Assembly: GCA_029289265.1 (NCBI GenBank)
Contig: JARFTX010000003.1
Span: 1-64,000 of the forward strand
Direction of reading: 5' to 3'
DNA length: 64,000 nucleotides
Source of the DNA: Gammaproteobacteria bacterium
Lineage (GTDB): Bacteria; Pseudomonadota; Gammaproteobacteria; Burkholderiales; Rhodocyclaceae
Position 1 is the first letter of the stretch, and each line of letters begins with the position of its first letter. The notes beneath the pieces were generated by a model. That model was not told the DNA's origin. It did not search any database and worked only from the letters and a program-made list of their open reading frames with translations. The position numbers were made by a program, and so were the translations under genes. Shown here piece after piece: positions 27,297 to 52,430 of the stretch.

Positions 27297-28424
27297 TCAG
27301 CGACTCGTCAGCTTGAGTTCGATGCGCCGATTGCGTGCATAGGCAGCCGGCGTGTCGCGCGCGTCGATCGGATGGTATTCGCCGTAGCCGGTCGCGGCCA
27401 GGCGCTGTGCCGGCACGCCCTGATCGCGCAGGAACTTGACGATCGCGAGCGCCCGGGCGGTGCTCAGCTCCCAGTTCGACGGGAAGCGCGCTGTGGCGAT
27501 GGGGCGGCGGTCGGTGTGCCCGTCGACCTGCAGCACCCAGGGTAGATCCTCGGGCATCCGTCCGGCGACGGTCTTGAGCGTCTCGGCCAGGTGCAGCAAC
27601 TGCTTCAGGCCGTCCTCGCTGACCTCGTCCGAGGCGGTCGGAAACAATACCTCGCTCGAGAAGACGAAGCGGTCGCCGACGATCTGCACGTCGTCGCGCT
27701 CGCCCAGCACCTCGCGCAGGCGACCGAAGAACTCCGAGCGATAGCGGTTGAGCTCCTGGACGCGGGCGGCCAGCGCGAGATTGAGCTGGCGACCCAGATC
27801 CTCGATCTGGATGTCCTTCTCTCGGGCGGCGGCTTCGGCCACCGCGAGGGCGCGATTGAGCTCCTCGAGCTGGGTTCGCACCGCGGCGAGTTGCCGATTG
27901 AGCAGTTCGATCTGCGCGAGCGCCCGCTCCGAAACCTCGCTCTGCTCGCGCAGCGCGCGCTCCGAGGTGTCGAGCGAACTGGCGAGTCGCGCCACATCGC
28001 TCTCGAGTTCTGCCTTGAGGCGTTGCAACGCCTCGATGTCCGCCGCAAGCCGCAACGCGTCGTCCAGTTGCTCCTGAAGCGCCGCCTGCGTGGCGCTCAG
28101 CGCGGTCTCGGCCTGCGACAGTCGGGCGGCGGCCATTTCGCGCTGGCGCTTCTCCTCGGCGAGCGTGGCCGAGAGCTCTCCCACGCGCGCCTGCGCCCGT
28201 TCGCGCTCGGCGCTCTCGAGGCTCAGCGTCTGGGCGAGCGCGGCAAGCTCGGCATTGAGTCGCTCGAGCGCCCGGTCGCGGCCGCTCACCGCGTCGGAGA
28301 GCACGAACTGCCCGATCACGAAGACCAGCAGCACGAACACCATCACCATCAGGAGTGCGGCCAGCGCATCGACGAAGCCCGGCCAGAAATCCAGCGCCCT
28401 GCGGCGCCGCGACAGCACCGCCAT
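27297..28424 (-). CDS. OmpA/MotB-type peptidoglycan-binding stator-like protein
   Basis: A 375-residue protein: one membrane helix (about 18-42) whose start WPGFVDALAALL carries an Asp where MotB-type stators bind the proton; a long coiled coil (about 50-235) rich in Ala, Glu, Leu and Gln; and a C-terminal OmpA-like domain with VDGHTDRRPI, NWELSTARA and NRRIELKL, which binds peptidoglycan. With the upstream MotA-like gene (3-nt gap) it should form a proton-driven 5:2-type motor unit. The long coiled coil is unusual for flagellar MotB. The role is unknown; Zorya ZorB and gliding or envelope motors are comparisons, not assignments. Confidence 0.85.
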   Translation of the reverse strand: MAVLSRRRRALDFWPGFVDALAALLMVMVFVLLVFVIGQFVLSDAVSGRDRALERLNAELAALAQTLSLESAERERAQARVGELSATLAEEKRQREMAAARLSQAETALSATQAALQEQLDDALRLAADIEALQRLKAELESDVARLASSLDTSERALREQSEVSERALAQIELLNRQLAAVRTQLEELNRALAVAEAAAREKDIQIEDLGRQLNLALAARVQELNRYRSEFFGRLREVLGERDDVQIVGDRFVFSSEVLFPTASDEVSEDGLKQLLHLAETLKTVAGRMPEDLPWVLQVDGHTDRRPIATARFPSNWELSTARALAIVKFLRDQGVPAQRLAATGYGEYHPIDARDTPAAYARNRRIELKLTSR

Positions 28425-28427
28425 GGC

Positions 28428-29498
28428 TCAGTCCGCCTTGTGGCCGCTCAGGGCGGCAGCGATGGTACGCGACATCAGGCGCAGTTCCGAGCGCAGGTCT
28501 TCTGAGAACTGCTGCTGGTCGTTGGGCCGTTGCACGAGCTGGCGAATCAGGCCGCGCAGGTCGTCCTGTGTCTCGGTGACCGAGGACAGGCCCCGAGACT
28601 CCCGGCTGATCAGCTCGGACAGGCGGTTCAACTGGTGTCCCAGTTCGCTCAACTGGTCGATGGTCGCCCGGCGCTCGCGCTCGGATTCGGTGATCGAACG
28701 CTGCATGCGATCGAGGCTCTCCGCGGTCTGCTCGAGCAGGGCCTGCACGTAGGCCGGCACGCCCGGTTCGCCCTCGATGGCGAGGCCTGCCGCCGGGATG
28801 CGGGTGATGTTGGAGAGCCAGTCTTCCAACTCGTTGTAGAAGCGGTTCTGGGCATGGCCCGATTGCAGGTCGAGCAGGCCCACCACCAGCGAGCCGGCCA
28901 GACCGAACAACGAGGTCGAGAAGGCCGTGGACATCCCGCCCAGCGGCTCGTCGAGCTTGACCTTGAGCGCCTCGAACATCGCCACCGGGTCGGTGCCCAC
29001 GCTCATTCCGCCGATGATCTCGCCGACCGAGCGGATCGTCACCAGCAGGCCCCAGAAGGTGCCGAGCAGGCCGAGGAAGATCAAGAGCCCGATCAGGTAG
29101 CGGCTGAGGTCGCGCTGTTCGTCAAGCCGGATCTGGACGCTGTCGAGGATCGAGCGCATCGACGCCGGCGACAGGTTGAGCTTGCCCCGGTCGCGGCTCG
29201 ACAGCATCTGCGCCATCGGGGCGAGCAGCACGGGCCGGATCGAGAGCGGATGGCCCGCCTCGATGCGATGGAAGCCTTCGATCCACAGCACCTCGCGCTG
29301 CAGCCGCCAGACCTGGCGGAGATTCACCGCGATGCCGATGGCGAGCACGAACAGGATGACGCTGTTGAAGGCGACGTTCGCGACAAACGCGTGCTTGAGC
29401 TGCGGCACCAGCAGCGCGGCGAGCGCGGCCACCAGCGCCAGGGAGATCCCCATCCAGGTCGTGACGTGGATGGGTTTGGTGAACTCCTTGCGTTCCAT
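28428..29498 (-). CDS. MotA/TolQ/ExbB-type membrane motor protein
   Basis: A 356-residue inner-membrane protein. Hydrophobic segments at about 13-33, 36-58, 137-160 and 190-212 flank the conserved FLGLLGTFWGLL (MotA/ExbB core) and PLGGMSTAFSTSLFGLAGSLVVG (TM4). The C-terminal third (about 255-345) is a soluble helical coiled coil. It is the ion-channel partner of the downstream OmpA-type protein and starts the two-gene operon (MERKEF). Flagellar MotA lacks this long C-terminal extension, and no flagellar genes are nearby. Confidence 0.87.
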   Translation of the reverse strand: MERKEFTKPIHVTTWMGISLALVAALAALLVPQLKHAFVANVAFNSVILFVLAIGIAVNLRQVWRLQREVLWIEGFHRIEAGHPLSIRPVLLAPMAQMLSSRDRGKLNLSPASMRSILDSVQIRLDEQRDLSRYLIGLLIFLGLLGTFWGLLVTIRSVGEIIGGMSVGTDPVAMFEALKVKLDEPLGGMSTAFSTSLFGLAGSLVVGLLDLQSGHAQNRFYNELEDWLSNITRIPAAGLAIEGEPGVPAYVQALLEQTAESLDRMQRSITESERERRATIDQLSELGHQLNRLSELISRESRGLSSVTETQDDLRGLIRQLVQRPNDQQQFSEDLRSELRLMSRTIAAALSGHKAD

Positions 29499-33008: not shown

Positions 33009-33593
33009 TCATCGCGGTCCGGGAGGCCCCGGCACGCGCACCGATTCGACGCCCGTGACGGAGAACCACGCTCCGTTTGCGTTGGTGACGAACACGATCG
33101 GTGCGAAGCAGGGATGCGGCAGGTCTACCGTCGCCCGGATTCGGGCATCGCCCGCCGTCGAGGCCGGAAACTGGTCGGTGATGCGGTTGACGGTCTGGGG
33201 TACCAGCGTGACCCCGCCCAGTTCGTCTACAAGCGCCTCGATCGTCAGGCAGCTTACGATCGCTCGGAACGTCGCCGCCGGATTGGTGCCCTGGCGATCC
33301 AGCGGAACGGGATCCCTGCGGGCGAGCACGAGGCCGCGCACATCGATGTCGAGGTCACCGTTCGCCCGAAGGACGCCGCGAGCACGGTCGAGTTCCCACG
33401 GAAGGCCGCCACCGTTGACGCCGCGGATCGGGTTCGCCGCCCCTGTGAAGGGCGCAGTGACCCCGGCCATCGTGTCGAAGTCGAGCACCTTGGCCTGGGG
33501 AATCACGTTCGCCTGAGCGCCGGCCGTCGTCGATACGGCGAGCGTGACGAGAAAAGCCGCTGTACGCAGCGGGGAAGATCGGGGGGTGCGCAT
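33009..33593 (-). CDS. Hypothetical secreted protein
   Basis: A 194-residue protein with a Sec signal peptide (about 1-26, cleavage after AGA-QA) and a soluble part with few distinct motifs: VLDFDTMAGVTAPFTG, GGLPWELDRARG, and two cysteines (VSCLTI and HPCFAP) that may form a disulfide. I do not recognise a family. A good AGGAGAG ribosome-binding site precedes the ATG. Upstream lies a predicted promoter with an adjoining dyad (33688-33722). The next gene downstream is amt, on the same strand but behind its own promoter. Confidence 0.6.
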   Translation of the reverse strand: MRTPRSSPLRTAAFLVTLAVSTTAGAQANVIPQAKVLDFDTMAGVTAPFTGAANPIRGVNGGGLPWELDRARGVLRANGDLDIDVRGLVLARRDPVPLDRQGTNPAATFRAIVSCLTIEALVDELGGVTLVPQTVNRITDQFPASTAGDARIRATVDLPHPCFAPIVFVTNANGAWFSVTGVESVRVPGPPGPR

Positions 33594-33687
33594 GTCTACT
33601 CTCCTGGGGTGTTCGCACTTGCGCCGCCCGGCGGTCCTTAGGCCGCAACTCGGGTCGATCCGTCGCCGGAGCCCGGTGTCGGGTGGC

Positions 33688-33722
33688 GGGACTGCCCCGT
33701 ATGACGGGGTAGTCTCACTATA
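33688..33722 (-). promoter_or_regulatory. Candidate promoter plus dyad for the secreted protein gene
   Basis: On the minus strand a good -10 (TATAGT, 33722-33717) is immediately followed by an inverted repeat with arms GACTACCCCGT and ACGGGGCAGTC (33714-33690; 10 of 11 pairs, 3-nt loop). No matching -35 is seen, which suggests activator dependence. The dyad could be an operator at the start site or a 5' RNA hairpin. The arms loosely resemble NarL-type TACCCC half-sites. Confidence 0.4.
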
Positions 33723-33890
33723 GATCGCCAGCGCAAAAGCGATACCTCGGCTGCATGCAGCGCCGCCCGAAGCGGGGAGACCGTCCCGGGAGGTTCTCCG
33801 GTCACTTGGCACGGTCCTTGAAATGCCGACTGGAGGGCAAGTCCCGGCCTCGCCGCCCGTACAACGCGTCTCCGCAAGGTGCGCCAGCAC

Positions 33891-37035: not shown

Positions 37036-40000
37036 ATGTCGGACAGGGCGGTGAAGCAGGAAGGGGCGAACGGAGCGCGGCGCGCGCGGGGGTGGCTGCT
37101 TGCAGGCTTGGCGTTCGCGCTGCTGGCCGCCGTCGCCAGCGCGTTCGTGCACGAGGCACGCCATTCGTGGCTGCAGGCGCGCGAGCTGGCACGCCACGCG
37201 CAAGGCCTCGATTTCGCTCTCGCCGCAGGGCCGAGCGATGCGATCCGCTTCCCGCCGCACGGGCCGTTCGACCAGCGCCTCGGGTACGCGCATCTCGAGC
37301 GCTTCGCCGAGCGCCTCGCCGCCCGAGGCTACGTCGTCGAGCGTCAGGTGCGCTTCTCTCCGGCGTTGATGGCGCACGTCGAGCGTGGACTGTTTCCGCC
37401 GTACAGGGAGAAGACGCGGGCCGGATTGCAGATCGCCGATCGCCGCGGCGCTCCAATGTTCGGATTCGCCTATCCGCACCACGCCTATGCCGGCTTTGTC
37501 GACATCCCGCCGGTCGTGGTCGAGAGCCTGCTCTTCATCGAGAATCGCGGCCTGCTCGATCCTCGCCGCCCGCACCTGAATCCGGCCATCGACTGGCCGC
37601 GCTTCGTCCGCGCAGCGATCGGGCAGGTCGTGCGCAGCTTCGACGACGGCGCGGACGCTCCCGGCGCGAGCACGCTGGCGACGCAGATCGAGAAGTATCG
37701 CCATTCGCCCGACGGCCTCACGCCCGGCCCGGCCGAGAAGCTGCGGCAGATGGCCTCTGCGAGCATCCGGGGCTATGCCGGCGGTCCGGATACGCTGGCC
37801 GCCCGCGAGCGGCTGGTACTCGACTACCTGAACACCGTGCCGCTCTCGGCTGCACCGCGTTTCGGCGCGGTACACGGCCTTGGGGACGGCTTGTGGGTCT
37901 GGTTCGGAACCGACTTCGACCGCGTCAATGCGCTGCTTGGCGCACAGCCTGGAGACGGTGTCACCGTCGCGGAGCAGGGGCGCGCACTGCGCGAGGTGAT
38001 GTCGCTGCTGATCGCCCATCGGCGGCCTTCGTACTACCTGGGACGTGGGCGCGAGGAGCTCGCGGCGCTCGTCGACAGCTACCTTCGCCTGCTTGCGGCG
38101 GCGGGGATCGTCGAGCCGGCGCTGCGCGACGCGGCCCACGCCGCCGAGCTGGAGTTCCGCAATCCTTGGGCTGTGCCGGCGCACGTGACGGTGGATGCGG
38201 ACAAGGGCGCGACCATGGTGCGCACGCGCCTCGCAACCCTGCTCGGTGTCTCCCTGTACGAGCTTGACCGCCTCGATCTGGACGTGTCGGCGAGCCTGGA
38301 CCGCAAGCTGCAGCACGCCGTCAGCGCTTGGCTGGAGCGCCTCGTCGACGCCGACTTCGCGCGCAGCGCCGGCCTGGTCGGCCACCGCCTGCTCGCACCG
38401 GCGACGCTCGCGGACGTGCGCTACAGCTTCACCCTGTTCGAGTCGACGCCCGAGGGCAACCGCGTGCGAGTGCAGACGGACACCACCGACCAGCCCCTCG
38501 ACATCAACGAAGGGAGCAAGCTCGAGCTGGGCTCGACGGCCAAGCTGCGCGTGCTCGCCACCTATCTCGAGATCATCGCCGAGCTGCATGCGCGCTACGC
38601 CGACGATCCGGCCGAGGAGCTGCGATCGACGCCGGTCGATCGCGAGGACGTGCTGACGCGCTGGGCGCTCGATTACCTGATTCGCGCCGACGATCGCGGC
38701 CTGCCGGCAATGCTCGAGGCGGCGCTCGAGCGCCGCTATCCGGCCAGCACCGCCGAGTCCTTCTTCACCGGCGGCGGCGTGCACCGCTTCAGCAACTTCC
38801 GGCGCGAGGACGACGGGCGCCACCCGACGGTGCGCGAGGCGCTGCAGGCTTCGATCAACCTGCCCTACGTGCGTCTGCAGCGCGACATCGTGCGCCACGC
38901 CATGTACCAGGTGCCCGGCAGCACCGCGCGGCTCCTGCAGGACGAAAGCGACGAGCGGCGCCACGACTACCTCGCCCGCTTTGCCGACCGCGAGGGACGG
39001 GTCTTCCTCGGCCGTTTCTGGCGCAAATATCGGGACCTCGAGCCCGAGGCGATGCGCGCGCTGCTGCTCGACGGCTTGCGGCCGACGCCGGACCGCCTGG
39101 CCGCGGTGTTCCGCTATCTCGAGCCTGAGGCCGATCAGGTCGCGTTCGAGGCCTTCCTGCGCGAGCACCTGGCCGACGCGCGCCCGGGACCGGCACGCAC
39201 CGCTGCGCTGTACGACCGTTACGCCCCGGGCCGCTTCGATCTGCCCGACCAGGGCTACGTCGCCCGCGTCCATCCGCTCGAACTGTGGCTTGTCGGCCAT
39301 CTCTCCTTGCACCCCGGGGCGAACTTCGCCGACATCGTCGCGGCGAGCAGGGACGAGCGCCAGGCCGTCTACCGCTGGCTGTTCCGCACCCGCGCCAAGG
39401 GCGCCCAGGATCAGCGGATCTACACCATTCTCGAGGTCGAGGCATTCCTCGACATCCACCGGCGCTGGGCGCGCCTGGGTTTTCCGTTCGACAGCCTGGT
39501 CCCGTCGCTCGCGACCGCGCTCGGCAGCTCCGGCGACCGGCCCGCGGCCCTCGCCGAGCTGATGGGCATCATCGTCAATGACGGCATGCTCCGGCCCAGC
39601 CGCCGCATCGAGCGGCTCGAGTTCGCGGTCGGCACGCCCTATGAAACGGCCTTCGTCCGCGCCGACGAGGCGGGCGTCCGCGTCATGGCGCCCGAGGTGG
39701 CGGCGGCGCTGCGCTCGGCGCTGTCGGATGTGGTCGAGGGCGGCACCGCACGGCGGCTCGCCGGCGCGTTCCGGACCGAGGATGGCCGCGTCGTCGAGGT
39801 GGGTGGAAAGACCGGCACGGGCGACAACCGCATCGTGATCGGCGGCGCGCGCAGCCAGGGCAGGGGGGTCGCCCTCAACCGTACGGCGACCTTCGTGTTC
39901 CATCTCGGCCCGAGCCATTTCGGCACGATCACGGCCTACGTCACGGGCCCCGAGGCGGCTCGCCACCGCTTCACCTCGGCGCTCCCGGTGCAGATCCTGA

Positions 40001-40128
40001 AGGCGATGGGACCGATACTCGTGCCCGCGATCGAGGCGACTCAGGACCCGGCAATTCGCGAACATCCGCATGCGGCGGGGCAGGGCGGCCGCGAGCCAGA
40101 GGCGGCGCCGGACGGCTCGGCCGTGTGA
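37036..40128 (+). CDS. Large bifunctional class A penicillin-binding protein-like (transglycosylase/transpeptidase)
   Basis: A 1030-residue protein with an N-terminal membrane anchor (about 19-40), a GT51 domain with catalytic Glu169 in FIENRGL and GASTLATQ at about 211, and a transpeptidase domain with SxxK in GSTAK (about 498), SxN in QASIN (about 604) and KTGTG (about 924). Motifs fit peptidoglycan synthesis, with large insertions: SxN to KTG is about 320 residues, far more than usual. The ED of the GT51 signature is EN here. The exact role is unknown; an atypical or special-purpose PBP is inferred. It lies beside the FecR/DUF6600 gene. Confidence 0.85.
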   Translation: MSDRAVKQEGANGARRARGWLLAGLAFALLAAVASAFVHEARHSWLQARELARHAQGLDFALAAGPSDAIRFPPHGPFDQRLGYAHLERFAERLAARGYVVERQVRFSPALMAHVERGLFPPYREKTRAGLQIADRRGAPMFGFAYPHHAYAGFVDIPPVVVESLLFIENRGLLDPRRPHLNPAIDWPRFVRAAIGQVVRSFDDGADAPGASTLATQIEKYRHSPDGLTPGPAEKLRQMASASIRGYAGGPDTLAARERLVLDYLNTVPLSAAPRFGAVHGLGDGLWVWFGTDFDRVNALLGAQPGDGVTVAEQGRALREVMSLLIAHRRPSYYLGRGREELAALVDSYLRLLAAAGIVEPALRDAAHAAELEFRNPWAVPAHVTVDADKGATMVRTRLATLLGVSLYELDRLDLDVSASLDRKLQHAVSAWLERLVDADFARSAGLVGHRLLAPATLADVRYSFTLFESTPEGNRVRVQTDTTDQPLDINEGSKLELGSTAKLRVLATYLEIIAELHARYADDPAEELRSTPVDREDVLTRWALDYLIRADDRGLPAMLEAALERRYPASTAESFFTGGGVHRFSNFRREDDGRHPTVREALQASINLPYVRLQRDIVRHAMYQVPGSTARLLQDESDERRHDYLARFADREGRVFLGRFWRKYRDLEPEAMRALLLDGLRPTPDRLAAVFRYLEPEADQVAFEAFLREHLADARPGPARTAALYDRYAPGRFDLPDQGYVARVHPLELWLVGHLSLHPGANFADIVAASRDERQAVYRWLFRTRAKGAQDQRIYTILEVEAFLDIHRRWARLGFPFDSLVPSLATALGSSGDRPAALAELMGIIVNDGMLRPSRRIERLEFAVGTPYETAFVRADEAGVRVMAPEVAAALRSALSDVVEGGTARRLAGAFRTEDGRVVEVGGKTGTGDNRIVIGGARSQGRGVALNRTATFVFHLGPSHFGTITAYVTGPEAARHRFTSALPVQILKAMGPILVPAIEATQDPAIREHPHAAGQGGREPEAAPDGSAV

Positions 40129-50935: not shown

Positions 50936-52273
50936 TCACGACCTCCCGGTAGGTTCGTCCGTGGCGGCAGCCGCATCGGGCTTCGCGCTCGCCCGCGCGC
51001 CGTCGAGCATTTCGTGGCGCGCACCCAATCGCAGTCCGACCGCCATCCACACGGCGGCAAGCGGCAGGGCGACCAGCGCGATGCCGCTCGCGCCGAGCCC
51101 CACCGCCCTCAGCCCGGCGTAGAGCCAGCCGCTCACCGCGTCACCGCCACGGTAGACCACGGTGTCGATGAAATTTTTCGCCTTGTACTTCTCCTCGGGC
51201 CGGACCACGGTATAGAGCGCTTCGCGCGCCGGGCGGGCAAGAAAGAAATTGCTCGTGCGCCGCAGCACCTGGAAGGCGACGATCACTGCAAGCACCGGAA
51301 AGGCGGCGAGCACGGCAAACCCCACGAGCGAAACGAGCGGCAGCAGCGCGAGCGCCTTGCCGAGGCCGAAATGCGTCATGACGCGGCCGGCGAGGAAGAT
51401 CTGGCCAAGCAGGGTGAGGGTGTTCACCGTGAGGTCCATGCCGGCAAAAAGTCGGGTGCGCTCGCCGGCGGTCGCGAAGGCGTCGCGCACTATGTGCGCC
51501 TGCTCGAAGTAGAGAAAGGTGGATAGCGTCGTAAACAGCACGATGTAGAGGCCGATGCCGAGCAGATAGGGCGAGGTTGCGGCGAGGCGGACGCCGGCGA
51601 AGACGCCACCGCCGATCGGCTGATCGTGGCGCCGGCCCGCTGCGCCAGCCGAGCGGCTTTCGGCGAAGCGGAGCAGGGCGGCGAGCGCCGCGAGCGCACC
51701 GGCCAGAAAGGCGGCCGACACCAGCAGCAGCGGCTCGGGGCCCAGGCGCGTCGCCAGCGTCACCGTGATGAGCGGCCCGGACACGGCACCGAGGCTGCCG
51801 CCCGCGGCGATCAGGCCGAACAGGCGCTTCGCCTGCGCGCTGTCCCAGAGGTCGGCCATGAAACTCCAGAACACCGACACGACGAACAGGTTGAAGACGC
51901 TCACCCAGACGAAGAAGGCCTGCGCCACCCAGCGCCGCTCCGCGCCGCTTTCCATCAGGGCGTAGAAGGCGACGAGCTGCGCGGCAAAGACCAGGTAGAC
52001 CCCGGGCAGCAGCCCCCGCAGCGGGAAACGCCGCACCGCCCAGCCGAAGACGGGCACTACCGCGAGCATCGCGACGAAGGTCGCGGTGAAGGTCCACTGC
52101 AGGTGCTCGACGCCGGCCTGGATGCCCATCTCGTCGCGCACCGGCCGCAGCACGTAGTAGCTGCACAGCAGGCAGAAGAAGTAGAGCGCCGAGAGCGCGA
52201 CCGGTACGAACTCGTCTCGTCGGACTCCGGTCAGGAAGCGGACGGATCTGGTCGCTTCGGTACGGAAGTTCAT
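50936..52273 (-). CDS. MFS-fold membrane transporter (NTP/NDP exchange-like)
   Basis: A 445-residue polytopic inner-membrane protein with about 12 helices. It begins with the helix ALSALYFFCLLCSYYVLRPVRDEMGI, a feature of the ATP/ADP translocase-like branch, and has NFFLARPAREALYTVV in the second half. The substrate is unknown; relatives are annotated as NTP/NDP exchangers but this is weak. The ATG at 52273 starts the first helix. The aldo/keto reductase follows without a gap, so an operon is likely. Confidence 0.75.
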   Translation of the reverse strand: MNFRTEATRSVRFLTGVRRDEFVPVALSALYFFCLLCSYYVLRPVRDEMGIQAGVEHLQWTFTATFVAMLAVVPVFGWAVRRFPLRGLLPGVYLVFAAQLVAFYALMESGAERRWVAQAFFVWVSVFNLFVVSVFWSFMADLWDSAQAKRLFGLIAAGGSLGAVSGPLITVTLATRLGPEPLLLVSAAFLAGALAALAALLRFAESRSAGAAGRRHDQPIGGGVFAGVRLAATSPYLLGIGLYIVLFTTLSTFLYFEQAHIVRDAFATAGERTRLFAGMDLTVNTLTLLGQIFLAGRVMTHFGLGKALALLPLVSLVGFAVLAAFPVLAVIVAFQVLRRTSNFFLARPAREALYTVVRPEEKYKAKNFIDTVVYRGGDAVSGWLYAGLRAVGLGASGIALVALPLAAVWMAVGLRLGARHEMLDGARASAKPDAAAATDEPTGRS

Positions 52274-52430
52274 GGGCAATCTCCTGCTTGTACTTATAGA
52301 CCAAAGCAGTCCCTGCGAATCCGGTCGTGGCGCGCACCCCCGATTCGTCCGCAATGGCCGGACCCGTGGCGTGTACGGACATTTTGGGCGCCGAGGACAT
52401 ACGGATAGGGTACAGACGTCACGGAACAAA

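Follow-up and report, generated by a model that had tools for sequence, protein, structure and literature searches.

The two adjoining genes at positions 27297–29498 of the window (the whole 64,000-nucleotide stretch of Rhodocyclaceae DNA analysed here) look like the two subunits of an ion-driven membrane motor, and the question they raise is what such a motor would do away from any evident flagellar locus. The superfamily has been divided into flagellar and generic ion transporters, and no OmpA homology is discernible in generic B subunits, according to the available part of PMC12505986. The B protein encoded here carries an OmpA domain, in which the pair differs from the generic transporters as that source describes them, so that the B family, if generic, would be an exception. 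A sequence-only reading of this DNA had proposed an uncharacterised, non-flagellar and proton-driven device. This interpretation is partly supported by the analysis described here, and it appears to be broadly right.

Architecture and conserved residues of the pair

The gene pair is confirmed as real. Both genes lie on the minus strand, and the reading frames leave 3 bases between the stop codon of A and the ATG of B. A (28428..29498; 356 aa) is a MotA/ExbB/TolQ/ZorA-like ring protein, as judged from its reading frame, Pfam, profile searches, an AF2 model and a tree. It scores 19.7 bits against Pfam MotA_ExbB (PF01618), slightly below the gathering cut-off of 22.9, and the earlier statement that it keeps the MotA core is loosely worded, as a profile of the A family hardly sees MotA. 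B (27297..28424; 375 aa) is MotB-like according to its reading frame, Pfam, NCBIfam and AF2. OmpA (54.3 bits, E 1.8e-14) is its sole Pfam match at E 0.001, at which no ExbD/TolR domain was found, and residues 4–375 match the NCBIfam model NF006543 (PRK09039.1-2) with 435.2 bits against a cut-off of 305 (E 2.9e-130). This model, entitled 'peptidoglycan-binding protein', gives no function; it covers B in full length, but not the A partner, the kinship to ZorA or the heptad rule described below.

In the single-chain AF2 model of A (mean pLDDT 79, pTM 0.60), membrane-type helices are followed by a C-terminal helix at residues 249–351 (28446..28754), which, together with the comparison of homologue lengths, bears out the cytoplasmic extension noted earlier. 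The model of B (mean pLDDT 80, pTM 0.42) consists of a helix at residues 17–193, a low-confidence gap at 194–200 that is a possible hinge site, a helix at 201–240 and the wall domain. The periplasmic coiled coil of B, residues 40–228 (27741..28307), was delimited by family-wide length and period analysis. Counted from Q39 up to R229, it is 190 residues long, in agreement with the roughly 185 residues first estimated, and is followed by a wall-binding OmpA/MotB-type domain, residues 229–375 (27300..27740), recognised by Pfam, a PDB match and alignment.

Conservation was assessed in 81 A/B pairs, namely those of the first 80 loci and the window. Asp19 of B, the MotB-like membrane Asp of the sequence-only reading (codon 28368..28370, in the motif WPGFVD of the membrane helix), is conserved in 100% of them, as are G302, D305, N317, W318, S321 and R324 of the wall domain. 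This domain is 146–148 aa long in 80 of the 81 homologues and truncated at a contig end in the remaining one, and the conservation of its motifs suggests that B binds the wall. In A, T147 (codon 29058..29060, in a GLLGTF motif) and S196 (codon 28911..28913) are also 100% conserved in the 81 pairs, and they align with the first and second channel threonines of TolQ and ExbB, which we take to have a role in the ion channel. The conserved residues suggest an ion drive, and it is from them that the term 'proton-driven' is drawn. In ZorAB, the same Asp lies opposite a Ser/Thr ring and is crucial to defence, according to the available part of PMC11890865.

Heptad steps in the coil of B and the tail of A

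Coil lengths in B follow a simple rule. In the first 81 proteins they range from 141 to 421 residues and equal 7n+1 in 73 cases (21 of the 26 distinct lengths); re-measured by motif, the same set gives 70 of 78. Another 84 proteins, measured by motif, yield 57 lengths of 7n+1 and a maximum of 857 residues, with 19 of the 35 distinct lengths following the rule where 5 are expected; one of these proteins is identical to an earlier one, and others may be close kin of earlier ones. The protein of L051, truncated at a contig end, was retained in the count of the first 81, in the measurement by motif and in the spanning tree described next, where it counts against the rule, and five proteins on which the motif rule failed (L083, L171, L172, L175, L188) are outside all length counts. 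To limit the effect of relatedness, a minimum spanning tree was built on the parts outside the coil of 162 proteins, leaving out the coils of L028 and L029, measured by alignment only, and those of L151, L155, L156 and L168, measured separately and all 7n+1. Coil length differs over 75 of the 161 links of this tree, and 42 of the 75 changes are multiples of 7, against 10.7 expected (binomial p 5e-17, for links that are not strictly independent). When periods from 2 to 15 are compared, 7 and 14 are the only ones to show a clear excess. Heptad multiples make up 30 of 49 changes in coils of up to 360 residues, and the excess is weaker in longer coils (12 of 26). The remaining 33 changes depart from the heptad: 23 of them differ by 3 or 4 mod 7, which is what steps of 11 residues would yield, and 10 otherwise.

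The coils are almost free of proline (4 in 37,223 residues), and their hydrophobic period peaks at 3.50. Length differences in heptad steps are a known sign of a continuous coiled coil, described for phytochrome cyclases in the available part of PMC9587094, and the length rule is not new in itself. Since the lengths change mainly by whole heptads, the coil appears to be a single uninterrupted rod of parallel helices with no flexible joint in it, and most of the membrane-to-wall stretch of B would keep one seam. A symmetric hairpin was considered and rejected, because steps of 14 would then dominate; multiples of 14 account for 19 of the 42 heptad steps, about half, as would be the case without preference, which argues for the parallel rod. 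At the rise of a coiled coil, 0.15 nm per residue, the coil would span about 28 nm in the window and 21–127 nm across the family. The membrane-to-wall distance is roughly 10 nm and the periplasm is about 20–25 nm wide. Most coils are longer than the former, so that the rod cannot simply stand upright beneath the wall. In the f249 loci (L169–L192 except L175), which are likely from Rhodobacteraceae, the coils of B reach as much as 857 residues (L182) and far exceed the width of the periplasm.

The C-terminal tail of A has at least 83 residues in the 138 proteins measured out of 173, and in 95% of those it reaches up to 170; the longest, in L043, is attributed to a frame error. Its hydrophobic period, 3.5, is the same as that of the B coil. 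In a control, however, 13 distinct tail lengths (52 of the 173 proteins being measurable) were spread over six of the seven classes mod 7, and with a second yardstick 11 lengths from 42 proteins were found in all seven. The length of the tail is not heptad-locked, unlike that of the coil. L151, L155 and L156, which belong to one gamma-class genus (code g321), have almost no tail: A, of about 246–268 aa, ends there 15–42 residues past its core, yet the coil of B has 169 residues. The strut is more constant than the tail, in a comparison that is biased because the family is defined by B.

Kinship, distribution and genomic setting

A profile built from the 81 A proteins gave 42–53 bits to six proteins of the ZorA3 model (type III ZorA), or 32–52 on whole open frames. 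Two ZorA1-model proteins received 9.8 and 4.7 bits, eight MotA, TolQ and ExbB proteins at most 8.6, and E. coli MotA and the two MotA-like proteins of the host at most 6.8. A likeness of A to all ZorA proteins was therefore rejected, since the two ZorA1 proteins do not stand apart in the profile search, and the kinship of A appears to be with type III ZorA and not with ZorA in general. In PADLOC, A matches ZorA3 (2e-13) and the ZorA1 model PDLC00597 (3.8e-13, 47 bits), and B matches ZorB3 (3.7e-22). The curated ZorA models NF041792 (11.2 bits, 700 needed), NF033916 (9.5, 250), NF033917 (9.5, 500) and NF033915 (8.7, 100) are not reached by A. The ZorA2 model had no match in 299 genomes or in the controls, and a type II reference is thus lacking. 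A tree of 42 rows separates the A family and all eight ZorA proteins (100/97) from MotA, TolQ and ExbB; its branches are long, and ZorA1 falls inside the A family, perhaps by long-branch attraction. A second tree, made without MotA and ZorA1, left the branching order open. With A as query, Foldseek found no match at E 0.001 or better (the best being ExbB at 1.8e-3), and VIA-align gave Z scores of 9–11 to ExbB, TolQ, ZorA and MotA (10–11 for ExbB and TolQ), which helical bundles can reach by chance, so neither program separates these four.

Among known systems, ZorAB, type III above all, shares with the pair the profile of the A core, the Asp of B, the OmpA/MotB-type wall domain and a helical A tail; the pair differs in its shorter tail, its long periplasmic coil and its housekeeping setting. 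Grouping with ZorAB and its partner genes had been named beforehand as what would speak against a new device. One tree does put A on the ZorA side, and the A profile finds type III ZorA, whereas the pair has no partner genes in the window and stays below every Zorya cut-off. MotAB, PomAB and MotCD have in common with it the gene order, the membrane Asp and the GHTD/SNWELS-type wall domain, but A is hardly like MotA at profile level and the pair is not tied to flagella. MotB has a flexible plug and linker where B has a stiff coil. TolQR, ExbBD and the generic ion transporters probably share the ring fold with A (by VIA-align to ExbB and TolQ), and the channel Thr positions correspond. GldLM and SiiAB are non-flagellar motors of the 5:2 type with large periplasmic parts, and they are likened to the pair by description alone, not by sequence. 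ZorAB, SiiAB and AglRQS are listed in the available part of PMC12204202, where the discovery of further 5:2 motors is expected.

The family is widespread. Of the 398 Pseudomonadota genomes in the sample, 86, about a fifth, have a match to NF006543 above its cut-off (91 at E 1e-60), and so do 10 of 150 relatives, which include 9 of 91 genomes of the window's own family. A contig search with A gave 188 relatives, and the best 80 of them are headed by Rhodocyclales, followed mostly by Alphaproteobacteria and a few Gammaproteobacteria. In 172 of 173 loci, A and B are neighbours and read from one strand (80 of 80 in the first set, 92 of 93 in the further one); the sole exception, L162, is truncated at a contig end. 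An apparent A–B fusion in L043, a single frame of 718 aa, was rejected as a frame error in a draft genome, the end of A running into out-of-frame-looking sequence before B; in L021 and L081 the B frame is merely open upstream and overlaps A in another frame. One locus from an Anaerolineae MAG (L077) holds an alphaproteobacterial-type copy next to inositol monophosphatase and is perhaps a binning error.

The pair is no peculiarity of this genome, and its family has a name, PRK09039. A search that excluded preprints and most subscription papers found no paper on the function of the A/B pair among the matches listed. A protein combining BLUF with the PRK09039 superfamily appears in a table of PMC8508746, which, in its available part, gives no function for the motor of the pair, and a search for PRK09039 also points to a phage genome paper (PMC5735904). 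A link to the Rgs/Tol growth factors of S. meliloti was dropped, as the main text of PMC7327166, in its available part, names no proton, MotA, OmpA or ExbB. As regards essentiality by Tn-seq, none of the names looked for occurs in the main text of either PMC5513736 or PMC10746277.

In the window, the pair lies between a rhodanese gene and a glucose/sorbosone-dehydrogenase gene, as named by Pfam. Ten neighbouring frames were selected between 23.6 and 36.6 kb. No flagellar, Ton or Tol genes, TolA and TonB included, were found among the eight scanned with Pfam, one of which had no match at all. PADLOC, run on all ten, detected no Zorya partner (zorC/zorD or zorE) at this locus; its few hits, a GTPase and a methyltransferase resembling LeoBC/LeoA and mad2, are weak, with E values of 2.6e-4 or worse. 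The earlier remark that flagellar, TonB, Tol and defence genes are missing beside the pair is borne out by these scans, the defence matches being weak. Elsewhere in the window, a protein of 1030 aa (37036–40128, plus strand) has weak transglycosylase (44.5 bits) and transpeptidase (24.8 bits) matches and is perhaps a divergent penicillin-binding protein, and two minus-strand frames, 33009–33890 (293 aa) and 51141–52400 (419 aa), have no Pfam match at E 0.001 and may or may not be genes.

Across 139 loci, some of them incomplete, the recurrent neighbours are inositol monophosphatase (55), EF-P (41), ThiE (18) and L31 (15), one representative of each named gene having been checked with Pfam; ABC transporters, a lumped cluster named from sequences, adjoin the pair in 53. 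In many Alphaproteobacteria the pair keeps to a fixed position in the chromosome, which does not resemble a defence island. In 21 of the 139 loci, the gene just upstream of A encodes a protein that has a proline-rich stretch and ends in an OmpA domain. Nine of these 21 were checked with Pfam and all nine match, as does one outside the cluster in L068, and a similar-looking protein in L033 does not. The upstream genes (L034:6788-7960 and 20 other loci of cluster 4; L068:6800-7942) lie in Rhodospirillales-type loci. Their N-termini suggest export, and the product is a possible third component. The Rhodocyclales, to which the window's relatives belong, have neither this protein nor the alphaproteobacterial gene order, and the neighbours in the f249 loci also differ from the alphaproteobacterial set.

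Possible function of the motor

The pair is not a flagellar stator, a TolQR/ExbBD complex or a Zorya system. The best explanation, with a probability of about 0.55, is an ion-driven A5B2 motor of the inner membrane, whose A ring would work against a wall-held, stiff B strut in the service of the cell envelope. In this view, five A subunits would surround two B subunits in the inner membrane, and the flow of ions past Asp19 would make the A ring rotate against the B dimer, as is the case for MotAB and ZorAB; the stoichiometry, the ion and the rotation are all carried over from such relatives. B would be held by its wall domain, and the coil would form a hinge-free strut that resists twisting. 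In many members the coil exceeds the gap between membrane and wall; it would therefore lie obliquely or reach sideways, and the motor may act remotely on the wall or the outer envelope. Its role would be housekeeping of the envelope, neither motility nor phage defence.

The same motor could instead have a cytoplasmic output, B being a fixed anchor, the coil only a tether and the five A tails a rotating stalk acting on a cytoplasmic partner. The tail, present with its heptad period in all 138 measured proteins of 173, does argue for some cytoplasmic role; the wall-binding B subunits of known motors serve as anchors, and the ZorAB tail is important for function, according to the available part of PMC11890865. 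Tail lengths, however, vary by single residues, the tail is nearly gone in L151, L155 and L156, and a mere tether needs no single seam over hundreds of residues, though coiled coils tend to keep their register. This arrangement is considered unlikely, and the near tail-less genus, together with the upstream OmpA-domain protein in 21 of 139 loci, tips the balance slightly towards an output in the periplasm. It could also be argued that the A tail signals envelope disturbance to a DNA-acting effector encoded elsewhere, as a Zorya-like anti-phage motor would. The type III profile scores, the PADLOC matches and the one tree that joins A with ZorA fit this proposal, and so does the helical cytoplasmic tail, a feature of ZorA in the available part of PMC11890865. 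Against it, no curated Zorya model is passed (11.2 of 700 bits and lower), the two ZorA1 proteins score no better than TolQ or MotA, none of the ten window neighbours is a Zorya partner, the alphaproteobacterial loci have recurrent housekeeping neighbours and the tail can be nearly absent. The family also occurs in 86 of 398 genomes, compared with 6 of 185 for ZorA3 and 3 of 299 for ZorA1 at 1e-30, in samples and at thresholds that differ. An anti-phage role is thus quite improbable.

A role as an auxiliary flagellar stator, or another device linked to the flagellum, would be suggested by the MotB-type wall domain of B, which scores 105.6 bits against the MotD model (cut-off 283) and has MotS as its best PDB match. 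The host genome encodes one FliG and five other MotA_ExbB proteins, of which, judged by sequence, two resemble MotA and three resemble TolQ/ExbB. FliG_C is found in 80 of the 91 family-positive genomes, but it is frequent in the whole sample as well (326 of 398), and 11 of the 91 have no match to it (G339, G388, G460, G464, G478, G527, G533, G547, G565, G632 and G711; the lists of family-positive genomes at E 1e-60 and of FliG_C matches were compared by eye). These genomes agree with the non-flagellar character first proposed for the pair. With A at no more than 6.8 bits to MotA, MotA across the branch in the 42-row tree and no flagellar gene among the scanned neighbours, a link to flagella is highly improbable.

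The envelope motor may be part of something broader: a widespread, undescribed class of housekeeping rotary motors of Pseudomonadota with a hinge-free, register-locked drive strut of 21 to 127 nm, through which torque or force would be exerted on the distant wall or outer envelope. In that case, the motor of type III Zorya would count as a recruited relative of this class and not of the flagellar stator. This extension is tentative and somewhat unlikely as a whole, and confidence in it was slightly lowered because the ZorA kinship is limited to type III. What is new here is that the coil of B extends from 141 to 857 residues and yet changes mainly in heptad steps, a rule that the tail of A does not follow. 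Known 5:2 motors drive flagella, the Ton and Tol systems, gliding and Zorya, and the pair would represent another large group of them, in which the likeness of A to type III ZorA bears on the origin of Zorya.
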